DNA from: Patescibacteria group bacterium | GTDB taxonomy: Bacteria; Patescibacteriota; Gracilibacteria; Absconditabacterales; Absconditicoccaceae | Direction of reading: 5' to 3' | Length of the DNA: 64,000 nt | Assembly (NCBI GenBank): GCA_022705745.1 | Contig: JAKJDW010000001.1 | Span: 87,307-151,306 of the forward strand | Shown here: one piece after another, positions 30,959 to 43,574 of the stretch | Layout: each line of letters starts with the position of its first letter | Numbering within the stretch: the stretch's first letter is position 1 | Position numbers and translations under genes: made by a program | Notes under the pieces: model-generated | What the model was told of the DNA's origin: nothing | Database searches by the model: none | Seen by the model: the letters and a program-made list of their open reading frames with translations, nothing else

Positions 30959-34594
<3,636 letters not shown>

Positions 34595-34705: not shown

Positions 34706-34861
34706 TTAAGGTCTTTGTGGTGTTAGTTGTTTTCTACCTTTTTTTCTTCTATTAGATAGAATTCTTCTTCCTGTCCGTTTCTTCATCTTCTCTCTAAATC
34801 AATGTGTCCTAAGTCTTTTTAGCCATTTATATTTTCTAACTCTTCTCAACTTACTTGCCAT
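34706..34861 (-). CDS. rpmH: 50S ribosomal protein bL34
   Basis: 51 aa. Seen: RTHGFREKMKKRTGRRILSN followed by RRKKGRKQLTPQRP, the hallmark of bL34. In most bacteria rpmH sits next to dnaA and rnpA; here it is in the rpo block between the S6-S18 fusion and rpoB. Confidence 0.93.
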
Positions 34862-34935: not shown

Positions 34936-35499
34936 TTAAACAAAACTCAATAATCACAAACCTCTGGCCCTAATGATTGCTTTTCTTAGTTTTTTTTGGG
35001 TTTTTACACGATTTTTTGTATATTTTCTAGGTTTTATAGAACCAAATCTAGTTAAATACTTTTTTAGAATAACTATGGATTTCCAGTTGATATATTTCTC
35101 ATTTTCAGGATGAGATAAGAATGATACTCTATTTCCAAATTTTTTATTATCTCGAGAATCAACAATTTTTTGTAATTCTTTTTGTAATTTTTCAAATTCA
35201 AAAAATATTTGAGTAGAATCCATTTTAAAAATTTGATATCTTACGATAATATTGGAATATAGTAAAGACTTTTTAACTGAATCCAATCAATCATTATTTA
35301 GGTCCATATAATAGGAAACATAATACATTCTATTGTTTCACCTAATAGATTTCACATCATAGGATGTCTCTTTTAGGCCAATATCGTCTTTCTGAAGAAT
35401 GTTTTTTTTGAATTCTTCTTCGAATTTAGATAAAAAATCTTTTCTCTCTGAATCTTTGACTTGAGAATTTAACATAAAAACTAATTCGTACTTTTGCAT
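34936..35499 (-). CDS. rpsF-rpsR: fused 30S ribosomal proteins bS6-bS18
   Basis: 187 aa, one continuous frame. Residues about 1-95 match bS6 (MQKYELVFMLNSQVKDSERK at the start, GNNRMYYVSYYMDL, IIVRYQIFKM). Residues about 96-125 form a linker. The rest is bS18: YINWKSIVILKKYLTRFGSI, KPRKYTKNRVKTQKKLRKAI and IRARGLGLLSF. S6 and S18 bind each other on the 30S platform, so a covalent pair is structurally sensible. No separate rpsF, rpsR or the usual intervening ssb occurs in the window. Confidence 0.9.
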
Positions 35500-35531: not shown

Positions 35532-36332
35532 TTATTTTACAGCCAATCTGATATAAGACTTAAGCTGGAATCATTCTGGAATTATGTTTTTTATTTTTTT
35601 TGAACCATCTCTAATGTATTCTTGTTCCAATAAAACATCTTCAGCCAAAGCTTTAGTTAGTTTTCATTTTAATATCTGATCAAGTATATTTTCTGGTTTC
35701 CCAGAATCTAACAGTTCTTGACGGAATTGAGATTCCATTTTAGAAATAATATCGCTTGGAACAGAATCAAAATCTAAATATGAGGGATTCATAGCGGCAA
35801 CTTGTAAAGCTATTTCTTTTGCTATATCAGAATTTGCTCATTCAAAAAACACTATAGATGCAACTTTATTACCTGGATGATTATAAACAAAACCATTCTC
35901 ATTTGTAAGTATAATATCATCTAATTGCATATTTTCTCATATTGCTCACACAGCCTCTTTTACCAACACATCCAAACTCTCAGATAAGTTTGTGGGAGCG
36001 TCTTGTTTTGATAAGAAAAACTCATTTTCTGATAATAGTTTGTCTAAAATATCATCACATAATTTGATAAATCACTCATTTTTGGCAACAAAATCAGTTT
36101 CACATAAAAGTTTAACTCAAGCTATTTTGCCGTTTTGGCTCACAACTTTTACAATTCATTCTTTTGTTTCTCTGTCTGATCTTTTACCAGCCTTTAAAAC
36201 TCATTTTTCTTTTAAAATTTCTTGTGCTTGTTGCAAATCCCCATTTGCTTCTATCAAGGCATCTTTACAATCTTTTAGAGGAGCAAAAGTAGTTTCCCTA
36301 AGTTGTTTTAATAAGTTTATATCTATACTCAT
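35532..36332 (-). CDS. tsf: translation elongation factor Ts
   Basis: 266 aa. Nucleotide exchange factor for EF-Tu. Seen: LKQLRETTFAPLKDCKDALI, LLCETDFVAKNEGF, HPGNKVASIVFFEG, ALQVAAMNPSYLDFD and LLEQEYIRDGSKKIK. Follows rpsB, its common partner, with one membrane protein gene between them. Confidence 0.96.
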
Positions 36333-36356: not shown

Positions 36357-36869
36357 TTATTTTTTCTCTAAATCCTTTTCTATTTCGGATTTATTTGTTT
36401 GATCTTGGATATCAGACTCAATATCGCTAGTTGTTGGTAAGTTGTGTGGCTTTGAAGGTGAGGGTATTTCAAACAATTCTATAAACCATGATCATAATGC
36501 AGAAAAGTTTGCAACAAATGATTCTTTTGAATTTGTAAAGTATTTCCCATCCCAAGCCTGTTTTACACTAATTATCCAAACGGTTAATAATATCAATAAA
36601 GGAATAACTCATAAATACTTTATAATAGGCAAAAACAATAAAACCATATCAAATACTAACACCAAGAAGAATACTATCCACCGACCAGAAGCTTGCTTCA
36701 GATGATAGTGCTCAAAAATACTGATGTCTTTTTTTGCTATAGAAACCATAATACCAAAAAACAAGTACATCATGATTGCTCTTTTTTTTTCTAAGCTACT
36801 AGGCATATAGTTGTTGTCCATAGCTTTCACATTTGTAGCAGTAGACTGAAAAGGATTTTTGATTTTCAT
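36357..36869 (-). CDS. multi-span membrane protein of unknown function
   Basis: 170 aa. About three or four hydrophobic helices (roughly 35-50, 68-90, 95-112) and an acidic, Ser/Pro-rich C-terminal tail. Seen: MPSSLEKKRAIMMYLFFGIM and HYHLKQASGRWIVFFLVLVF, a pattern found in short bacterial membrane proteins. Sits between rpsB and tsf, so it is probably co-transcribed with ribosomal genes. Function unknown. Confidence 0.72.
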
Positions 36870-36882
36870 ATATTTTTTTAGA

Positions 36883-37542
36883 TTAGGATAAGATATAATT
36901 CATAACAAAATCTATACTTTTATAACTTAGCATATTTGCGATAATGTCGTTATCTCACAAATATTGATCATAGTTTGTGGAAGATATCACTATACTATCA
37001 ACAGCTCATTGAGCTGGTAATTCTCTAACAAAATTTCTCATCATAGAGCCATCTACAACTATCACCAATCATGGTTTAGTGGTAAGATTTTTTACTCATT
37101 CATAGATCTTTTTGGTTCTGGATAATTTTCTTTTGTAAACCAGTTGCTCCTTTTTGGTCAAAGAAGCAAATTCTTCGGTTTCCACAAAAGCACTCATCTT
37201 GTTCATTGAGCTGATCCTCGTTTTGAAAGTATCAAAATTGGTCAAAAATCATCCAGGAGCTTTGTAATTTAAATAAGATACTCAGTACCTTTCTCCTAAA
37301 GTTTTCATTTCTGTGGCATACATCTTTTTTTCACATACTACCAAAACCTCTTGTCCTGATTTTTTGACATCTTGAACCTTCTTTTTTGCTTTGTTTAGCT
37401 GTCCCAAAATCATTTCAGGATTTAAAACAACTATGTTGTTTACAATATCCAATCGATAATTGCTTGTTTTGGGATGAGCTTCACTTTTTAAGGTACCAAT
37501 ATGCACTTGTGAATCTACTATTTGTTTTACAGTAACACTCAT
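36883..37542 (-). CDS. rpsB: 30S ribosomal protein uS2
   Basis: 219 aa, slightly short for S2. Seen: VKQIVDSQVHIGTLKSEAHP, NYRLDIVNNIVVLNPEMIL, YLNYKAPGGFLTNFDTFKTR, and PGLVIVVDGSMMRNFVREL in place of the usual NPDAIFVIDPxxE region. Divergent but unmistakable. Part of the rplJ-rplL-rpsB-tsf series. Confidence 0.92.
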
Positions 37543-38795: not shown

Positions 38796-38898
38796 TTTAG
38801 AATTCAAAGTTTAAGTTTTAAATAAGATTTGGACAAGTCCTAATAGATTAAGATTTTTATTTTAATACATTTTGAACAAAAATCTTGTTGGTTTTTGA

Positions 38899-39014
38899 AT
38901 TAAAAAAAACCACATCCGAAGATGAAGTTATATACAAAAAAATAATTTTTGATATAACCTAGGTAGGAGCTTACTTTTCTAAAATTAGAATAGCCTACTG
39001 TCTCCGGCGATCAG
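38899..39014 (-). promoter_or_regulatory. ribosomal protein L10 leader with terminator-like hairpin
   Basis: On the minus strand the 5' leader of rplJ contains TCGCCGGAGACAGTAGGC, then GTAAGCTCCTACCTAGGT, the conserved elements of the L10 leader (an autoregulatory site for the L10-L12 complex). Then a TTCG-capped hairpin (ACTTCATC-TTCG-GATGTGGT) is followed by a T run, an attenuator. Homology to RF00557 is by eye and should be confirmed with a covariance model. Confidence 0.85.
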
Positions 39015-39018
39015 CGAA

Positions 39019-39046
39019 AATATATAAATTTATAATCAAAATGCAA
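39019..39046 (-). promoter_or_regulatory. promoter of the rplJ block
   Basis: Minus strand TTGCAT (39041-39046), 16-base spacer, TATATT (39019-39024). The start of transcription would fall just before the L10 leader. Confidence 0.65.
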
Positions 39047-40721: not shown

Positions 40722-41936
40722 CTATGTACTTCATACTATACCATCCTCTGATATAGTAAATACTATATCTCCACTATAGATTCCGCTTGGTAAATCTGCA
40801 GGAATTGTAACCTGTAATTGAGTAGAGGCTGATATCTCACATATCATACCGTAGTTTTTTTTAAATAAAGTTTGTGGAGATGAAATATCTGTAAATAAAC
40901 TTGGTAGTTCACCGGTTAAGGTACAGTCTCAACTAGTAATATTTGGTCTACTAATATGTTTAAGTTTTACTCCTGAAGCAGGAATTTGATTGCCTGCTGG
41001 ACTAATTAAAGGGAATGCTTGAACAGTTATTTGTACATCAGCACCTCCTTTTCCTAACTCACATGTATATCCTAGGTTATTGGATTCCAACACTTGTTCA
41101 GCAACAGAGTGACCAGTTTGCATTGAAGTATAATCAGAAAAGGTACAAGTATTTTCTCATCCACTAATAGTTTGAGTTTTTCTCCAATCTCCTTGGACCA
41201 AAATATGTTTTAGATCTATAAAGTCTAATAAACCTGAAGACAATTGTGTATAATATATATGGTTATTATGAACATTTAGTCAGTCTCTATCTCATAAACT
41301 TGTTAATCCCATAATTCCTTCTCATATGCTACTTATTTCATTATTAGCAAGATTTAACTCCTCCAAAACACTCTCAGTATTAAATACTATTTGTTCCACA
41401 CTTGTTAATTTGTTATAACCAAGCAATAAAATTTTTAAAGAATCAGGAAACTCCACTCCGGATATGCTTGTTATTTGGTTACTAGAAAAATTTAATATTT
41501 GCAAAGAGCTAGGGAATGCTGTTCAAGATAGGCTTGTTATCTGATTGAAAGCAAGGTCTAAATTAACTAGGGAATTGGGAAATGCTACTCAAAATATGCT
41601 TGTTAGTGAATTCTGGGAAAGATACAATTCTCTTAAGTCTCTATGATTTACAAAGGCATCACTTTCTATACTAGTAATTCATTGATTGGATAAATCACAA
41701 GAAGTAGCACCAGTAGCACAGCCCATGGATACAACATTTCCACTGGTTAGTGGTTTTGTCCCCCATTGTGCAGAACTTTTACCCAAATCCAATGTGCTAA
41801 AAAGTCATACAAATAGTAATGCAATTGTTACTATTGCGAATGCTCATAATGTCCCAAAGAGATACCTCTTTCCATGCCTTTGGAAATAATTATTGGTACT
41901 CTTTGTGTATCTAAAGAAATGATTAATTTTATTCAT
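40722..41936 (-). CDS. leucine-rich-repeat surface protein A
   Basis: 404 aa. N-terminal basic stretch, then one membrane helix YLFGTLGAFAIVTIALLFVG, so it is anchored by its N terminus and exposed outside. About six LRR units follow, for example LRELYLSQNSLTSIFGVAFP and LQILNFSSNQITSISGVEFP, then a C-terminal beta domain ending in LPSGIYSGDIVFTISEDG. Cys pairs suggest disulfides. Paralogue of the next gene: the first roughly 58 residues and the promoter are nearly identical. Probably an adhesin or host-binding protein. Ends in TAG. Confidence 0.85.
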
Positions 41937-42272: not shown

Positions 42273-43574
42273 TTATTCATTAATAGTAAATACCACATCT
42301 CCACTATAAGTTCCTGCTGGTGTACTTTGAGGAATTATGATTTTTAATTGAGTTTCATTTCCATATCAACATGCTCCCGCCCCCTGCTTACTAAACAAGG
42401 TTACTCCACTTGCAATGTTGCAATAAGTGGTTCCTAATTGAGGTACTATACTACACCCCTCTACTGGACTAACTCCAGTCAAAACTTGTCTCATACTTAC
42501 ATTGGAAGCAGGAATTTGGTTATGTTCTAAGCTAATTAAAGGAGATGATTGAACAGTTACATATGATCCAGATTTTCCACCTATAGTACAATAATAAGCA
42601 GAAGTTTCAGATTCCAATTCCATACTAGCTATACTGGTAGTAGCTTCCATTGCAGAATAGCCAGAAAAAGAACAGCTGGATCCTCATCATCACAAAATTT
42701 CTATCGTAATATTTTTATTATATGTTCAAGAACTAGAAGGTGGGGTAAAGGTTTGAGTTTCTCTCCGACCTGTTTTTGATTTTTGATCTATAAAGGCCAA
42801 AAGCACAGAAGATAATTGAGTATAGTTGATATGGTTATTGTTAATATTTAGTCATCAATCGTTTCGTAAATTTATTAACTGAGTAGTATTTTCTGGCATT
42901 GCATTTAATTGATTAAGACTCAGATCTAAACTCTGCAAAGAACTAAGAGATACTACTTGATCTATGTTTTTTAGAAGGTTGAAAGACAAATTTAATCTCA
43001 GCAAAGAACTAGGAAGCACCGCTCAAGAAAGGTTTGTTAATCCATTGCTGTAAAGATTTAAATATTGCAAAAAGCTAGGGAATGCTATTCAGGATAGGCT
43101 TGTTAATCTGTTGCTGGCAATATTTAAATTCTGCAAAGAGCTAGGGAATGCTGTTCAGGATAGGCTTGTTATCTTATTGAAAGCAAGGTTTAAATCAACT
43201 AGGGAATTGGGAAACGCTACTCAAAATATGCCTGTTAGTGCATTCTGGGAAAGAGACAACTCTTCTAAGTTTCCATGATTTACAAAGGCATCGTTTTTTA
43301 TGCTAATAATTCATTTATTGGATAAATCACAAGAAGTAGCATCAGTAGCACAGCCCATGGATACAACATTTCCACTGGTTAGTACCACTTGTGGTGGTGA
43401 CTGCTGTGCAGAACTTTTACCCAAATCCAATGTGCTAAAGAATCATACAAATAGTAATGCAATTGTTACTATTGCGAATGCTCATAATGTCCCAAAGAGA
43501 TACCTCTTTCCATGCCTTTGGAAATAATTATTGGTACTCTTTGTGTATCTAAAGAAATGATTAATTTTATTCAT
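42273..43574 (-). CDS. leucine-rich-repeat surface protein B (duplicate of A)
   Basis: 433 aa. Same N-terminal anchor and start as protein A, then about eight LRR units such as LQNLNIASNRLTSLSGIAFP and LLRLNLSFNLLKNIDQVVSL. A beta domain follows with GGKSGSYVTVQSSPLISLEH and a C-terminal AGTYSGDVVFTINE. The middle differs from A in repeat number and sequence while the ends are conserved, as expected for a variable surface family. Cys-rich C-terminal part. Confidence 0.85.

Follow-up and report, generated by a model that had tools for sequence, protein, structure and literature searches.

Ribosomal proteins S6 and S18 encoded in one reading frame in Absconditabacteria and other Patescibacteria lineages

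Few proteins are as conserved as the ribosomal proteins of bacteria, each of which has its own gene; S6 and S18, too, come from separate genes in nearly all bacteria. An earlier, sequence-only reading of the window analysed here (64,000 nucleotides of contig JAKJDW010000001.1, from a Patescibacteria group bacterium) had proposed that a single frame codes for both proteins. Is this a genuine fusion gene, how could it have arisen, and what would its product do in the ribosome? The features relevant to these questions are the following.

34936..35499, minus strand: rpsF::rpsR fusion gene, 187 amino acids plus a TAA stop codon, read with genetic code 25
35209..35499, minus strand: bS6 domain, residues ~1-97 (Pfam match at residues 3-92)
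35128..35208, minus strand: junction, residues ~98-124, formed by the S6 C-terminal helix (102-116 in the model) and then a short flexible loop
34939..35127, minus strand: bS18 domain, residues ~125-187 (Pfam match at residues 134-184)
35532..36332, minus strand: tsf (EF-Ts; PF00889), directly upstream of the fusion
34706..34861, minus strand: short basic ORF between the fusion and rpoB, which we take by eye to resemble ribosomal protein bL34 (rpmH)
30959..34594, minus strand: rpoB, which lies downstream of the fusion; this gene order is shared across the family

The fusion ORF runs from an ATG at 35499 to a TAA at 34936-34938. Its three in-frame TGA codons (residues 54, 71 and 182) are Gly codons under table 25, and translation with table 11 breaks the ORF into pieces. 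With code 25, the frame is open throughout, and no stop codon or frameshift, which the sequence-only reading had named as evidence against a fusion, occurs between the domains. Both domains matched their Pfam profiles above the curated cut-offs and over essentially their whole lengths, as that reading had anticipated: Ribosomal_S6 (PF01250) at residues 3-92 with 34.4 bits (cut-off 27; profile positions 1-90 of 90) and Ribosomal_S18 (PF01084) at residues 134-184 with 52.4 bits (cut-off 21; positions 2-52 of 52). The NCBIfam model of S18 (TIGR00165) was also passed, with 42.6 bits against a cut-off of 38.75. The NCBIfam S6 model (TIGR00166) aligned over positions 1-94 of 95 and scored 25.1 bits, under its equivalog cut-off of 42.9. 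Thus, the S6 half is a diverged domain of the bS6 family according to Pfam and to its fold, and it lies outside the NCBIfam equivalog.

The domains had been described as separated by a linker of about 30 residues. A junction does exist, but most of it is inherited and little of it is new. Residues ~98-117 correspond in the alignment to the C-terminal tail of the unfused S6 proteins of relatives, which already ends in an FxxFxxLxKK-type helix followed by an acidic tail. Similarly, residues ~118-133 align with the N-terminal extension of the relatives' unfused S18, which starts with a KKxxxF-type segment. A separately started S18 made from inside the fusion is unlikely, as the window gene has no ATG, GTG or TTG codon at residues 98-134 and no such codon is conserved there across 30 fused genes of the family.

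The window genome is a 1.06-Mb draft of 66 contigs that is 94% complete. A six-frame HMM search of all of it yielded exactly one PF01250 and one PF01084 match, both in the fusion ORF; hence, the separate rpsF or rpsR that would have spoken against the proposal is found nowhere else in this genome. The sole ssb gene sits on another contig. A second copy in the missing part of the draft is formally possible; it is ruled out for the single-contig genome G027. None of the 30 fused genomes contained a stand-alone rpsF or rpsR in the same type of search. Of the 49 family genomes, 47 carry exactly one S6 and one S18, and the contigs of the other two (G004 and G070) begin inside or just before rpoB, the usual downstream neighbour of the fusion.

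A survey of related genomes, as the sequence-only reading had suggested, revealed the same fusion in relatives named candidate division SR1, Absconditabacteria or Gracilibacteria. Intact fusions of 185-189 residues are encoded in 30 of the 49 family genomes, with 32-68% identity to the window's protein; 16 other genomes have separate genes, two lack the region, and in the last one (G025; locus L054, minus strand) the S6 and S18 halves are out of frame, owing to a one-base shift within a run of A in the junction. This shift may be due to faulty assembly, to slippage or to a real split that is under way. Longer open frames of 238-266 residues in g9 and g19, which looked like additional fusions, were discarded: an in-frame TAA or TAG divides the genes, and S18 has its own ATG. 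A search of viral contigs gave no relatives.

The window's frame is open only if TGA is a sense codon, and its genome is a draft. One might therefore suspect a wrong genetic code, an erroneous assembly join or a frameshift error, but the likelihood of such an artefact is negligible. The fusion is shared by 30 genomes, one of which is the single-contig complete chromosome of the SR1 bacterium RAAC1_SR1_1 (CP006913.1). In seven fused relatives the full frame contains no in-frame TGA and is open regardless of the code, which rules out a genetic-code artefact, and chance is excluded by the in-frame joining of both domains in so many related genomes. In addition, pooled pN/pS values from 14 pairs of relatives are 0.27 for the S6 part, 0.32 for the junction (residues 98-124) and 0.17 for the S18 part, and these ratios are conservative since synonymous sites are partly saturated. 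The junction is thus under purifying selection and is therefore translated in the fused frame.

The unfused relatives indicate how the gene may have arisen. We placed the genomes on an rpoB tree, a quick, single-gene reconstruction with several long branches. Its deepest lineages (G005, G021/G029, G017 and G006) have the usual bacterial order rpsF-ssb-rpsR, in keeping with the earlier statement that rpsF and rpsR are usually separate, often with ssb between them. In G007, G009-G013 and g19, rpsF is directly followed by rpsR, typically 17-66 bases away, and some of these adjacent pairs share one frame with a single stop codon between them. Finally, a crown clade of 30 genomes in eight genera has the fusion wherever the gene can be read, except for the frameshifted copy of G025. 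As these states are preserved in living relatives, we propose that ssb would first have left the ancestral rpsF-ssb-rpsR operon, that rpsF and rpsR would then have become close neighbours, and that the rpsF stop codon and the spacer would lastly have been turned into a coding junction.

On this tree, a single origin does not account for all fusions of the window's family (f1). The rpoB tree allows G008 to be placed together with the crown clade (AU p 0.41), and it rejects one clade of G028 with all fused genomes (AU p 1e-5). Furthermore, the junction of G028 differs from that of the crown clade and resembles the N-terminus of unfused S18 proteins. The AU test and this different junction require either a second fusion, in G028, or later splits in its neighbours. 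One old fusion followed by reversion to separate genes in G007 and in G010/G012/G013 is unlikely. The tree needs three state changes in total, and their minimum count alone leaves the direction undecided; however, beyond the rejected clade and the distinct G028 junction, each split would have had to regain a stop codon, a spacer and a start. A second fusion event in G028 is thus probable.

We also used a fusion profile to search 353 genomes at class level and 380 at phylum level. Fusions were found in G238 (L154), which belongs to another family, and in five of the six genomes of family f41 (L158-L162), which belongs to another class; both lineages use the standard genetic code. Both Pfam domains are above cut-off in all six of these proteins, their junctions are unlike that of the crown clade, and every fusion that we found has the order S6-S18. 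Together with the probable event in G028, the sequences of G238 and f41 suggest about four origins of the S6-S18 fusion, if splits are rare. In at least three f41 genomes, the fusion adjoins a gene that by eye looks like ruvX.

We next considered the predicted structure of the fused chain. AlphaFold2 run on 30 natural sequences gave a model with a pLDDT of 90.3 and a pTM of 0.84; the strands (E) and helices (H) of its S6 half are E2-11, H16-29, E34-44, E57-67, H69-78 and E85-92. Among the solved chains listed by the fold comparison, which were S6 chains, the best match of this half is Porphyromonas gingivalis S6 (9i5x_b), with a VIA Z of 14.7 and an rmsd of 1.5 over 95 residues. The pTM over 187 residues, an indirect measure of domain arrangement, implies in our reading that the two domains are confidently placed relative to each other in the model. 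C-terminal residues of ribosome-bound S6 in 9i5v_b, 7jil_k and 1fjg_F align with model residues 130-142, near the start of S18, which is weak evidence for a junction located where both partners meet. A model of the f41 fusion from 14 sequences has a pLDDT of 82.6, a pTM of 0.78 and a disordered junction. A sequence search of deposited structures found no PDB chain with both domains.

The junction loop is the sole stretch of the window's model with very low confidence, with pLDDT values <50 around residues 120-122. In the crown clade it carries a conserved KKxGQK motif, which reads KKFGNR in the window; G122 and K124 are nearly invariant (K124 is replaced by R in the window). These features could be expected if one chain were translated and then cut in this loop, at about residues 118-124, so that the ribosome would keep separate S6 and S18 proteins. 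We nevertheless regard cleavage as very improbable. The motif is absent in G008, G028, G238 and family f41, so that there is no common cleavage site, and a basic segment before S18 is equally expected for contact with rRNA. We know of no protease that cuts such a junction.

Thus, the product is very probably one chain, in effect an S6:S18 heterodimer joined in advance, which becomes part of the 30S platform in place of both proteins, and whose gene arose stepwise. The single frame, the single copy, purifying selection, the operon intermediates, recurrence and the confident joint fold prediction all lead to this interpretation. We infer both the presence of the intact chain in the ribosome and the reasons why the fusion was favoured. 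In the proposed mechanism, bS6, joined through its C-terminus to the N-terminus of bS18, would fold against it as in the known heterodimer, and the chain would bind the 30S platform as one unit. S6 and S18 have been shown to dimerize with each other before they bind the S15-rRNA complex, and this heterodimer also represses its own operon in Escherichia coli (PMC4647458, PMC10931766). In the fused chain, the two proteins would be synthesized at a fixed 1:1 ratio and at a high effective concentration, the bimolecular step of heterodimer formation would disappear, and rpsR would no longer need a start signal of its own. The fusion would also abolish the free C-terminus of S6, a target of RimK modification in E. 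coli (PMC10931766).

A fixed S6:S18 ratio is a plausible reason for the fusion. A reduced genome is by itself no sufficient explanation, since relatives without the fusion have equally small genomes. The join might also be selectively neutral: ssb moved away, loss of the rpsF stop codon was tolerated, and the fused gene persists by drift in small populations. This proposal concerns why the fusion exists and is compatible with the best explanation of its anatomy; we hold it to be possible rather than probable. Adjacent but unfused genes have persisted in many relatives (G007, G009-G013 and g19), the sequences and lengths of the junctions vary between lineages, and translation without Shine-Dalgarno (SD) signals is shared with the unfused relatives. 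In contrast, drift does not readily fit a fusion that evolved about four times, always in the same order, and that the eight crown genera have kept apart from one frameshifted copy.

As to SD signals, an SD core precedes one of 48 ORFs in the window, against 0.9 expected from composition, and G makes up only 6% of the bases upstream of the starts. Unfused relatives and outgroups show a similar scarcity of SD cores, with fused and unfused genomes alike in this respect, in small samples of 8 to 21 ORFs each with naive start calls. In the E. coli control, naive starts had an SD core in 10 of 19 ORFs, against 4.8 expected, and annotated starts in 12 of 15. In Bacteroidia, the platform region holds the 3' tail of 16S rRNA, and a pocket formed there by bS21, bS18 and bS6 prevents SD pairing (PMC9976891). 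As this pocket includes the two proteins joined here, a link between the fusion and the absence of SD signals seemed attractive at first. We considered that the fusion, with about four origins in Patescibacteria, always on a largely SD-independent background, might remodel the 30S platform and be a functional adaptation of SD-less initiation or of ribosome assembly rather than a neutral event, a proposal that we find rather doubtful. SD loss as the specific cause of the fusion was rejected: since the scarcity extends to unfused relatives and outgroups, SD loss came first, and it does not explain which lineages fused. It may have eased fusion, as a permissive background only, in that rpsR had no start signal worth keeping.

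Regulation of the operon was addressed through the rpsF leader. No Rfam match at gathering score was found there in the window, and none up to an E-value of 1 at 20 fused and unfused loci, although Rfam 15 may hold no model of this type. The operon may perhaps not be autoregulated at all in this lineage. The minus-strand gene order in the window is rplJ, rplL, rpsB, a hypothetical gene, tsf, the fusion, the bL34-like ORF, rpoB and a gene that we take by eye to be rpoC. Upstream of rplJ-rplL, an L10 leader (RF00557) scores just over gathering at 38892-39025 (minus strand); autoregulation of rplJ-rplL thus seems to have been kept, while the S6-S18 fusion has no visible leader. The hypothetical gene between rpsB and tsf (36357-36908, minus strand) codes for 183 residues with long hydrophobic stretches resembling membrane segments and has no Pfam match. 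Further away, two adjacent minus-strand genes (40722-41936 and 42273-43574) encode proteins whose first ~50 residues are nearly identical and whose subsequent leucine-rich repeats (PF13855) differ; the pair resembles tandemly duplicated genes for exported LRR proteins.

The fusion is a variant of a known module and not a new kind of system. It shares protein families, operon order and one copy of each protein with the bS6:bS18 heterodimer of E. coli and Thermus, and the same place in the 30S subunit is expected. However, it is one polypeptide instead of two made from separate rpsF and rpsR genes; it has neither a free S6 C-terminus, which precludes RimK-type glutamylation, nor a free S18 N-terminus, and ssb/priB no longer lies between the genes in the fused lineage. 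The rpsF-ssb-rpsR operons of G005, G006, G017, G021 and G029 are orthologous, of the same family and likewise located beside rpoB, but consist of three separate genes, the unfused ancestral state. The eukaryotic ubiquitin fusions UBA52 and RPS27A also combine a ribosomal protein with another protein in one frame, and they are cut after synthesis. Their partner is not ribosomal, whereas both halves are ribosomal here and touch each other in the subunit. We came across no description of an S6-S18 fusion in our search of open-access papers; a listing of this architecture in domain databases is possible.

What makes this case notable is that the fusion is recurrent, that its intermediates are living, and that its two proteins were known before to be incorporated into the ribosome as a heterodimer. 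The fusion is also a marker character for the classification of Absconditabacteria, and its gene would be cut by table 11 annotation in many of these genomes. Absconditabacteria (SR1) are tiny host-dependent bacteria, and the fusion is directly testable on their ribosomes. As a natural experiment, it would help to show whether 30S assembly is limited by heterodimer formation, how S6:S18 autoregulation is replaced by a fixed ratio and which form the 30S platform takes in bacteria that make no use of Shine-Dalgarno signals.
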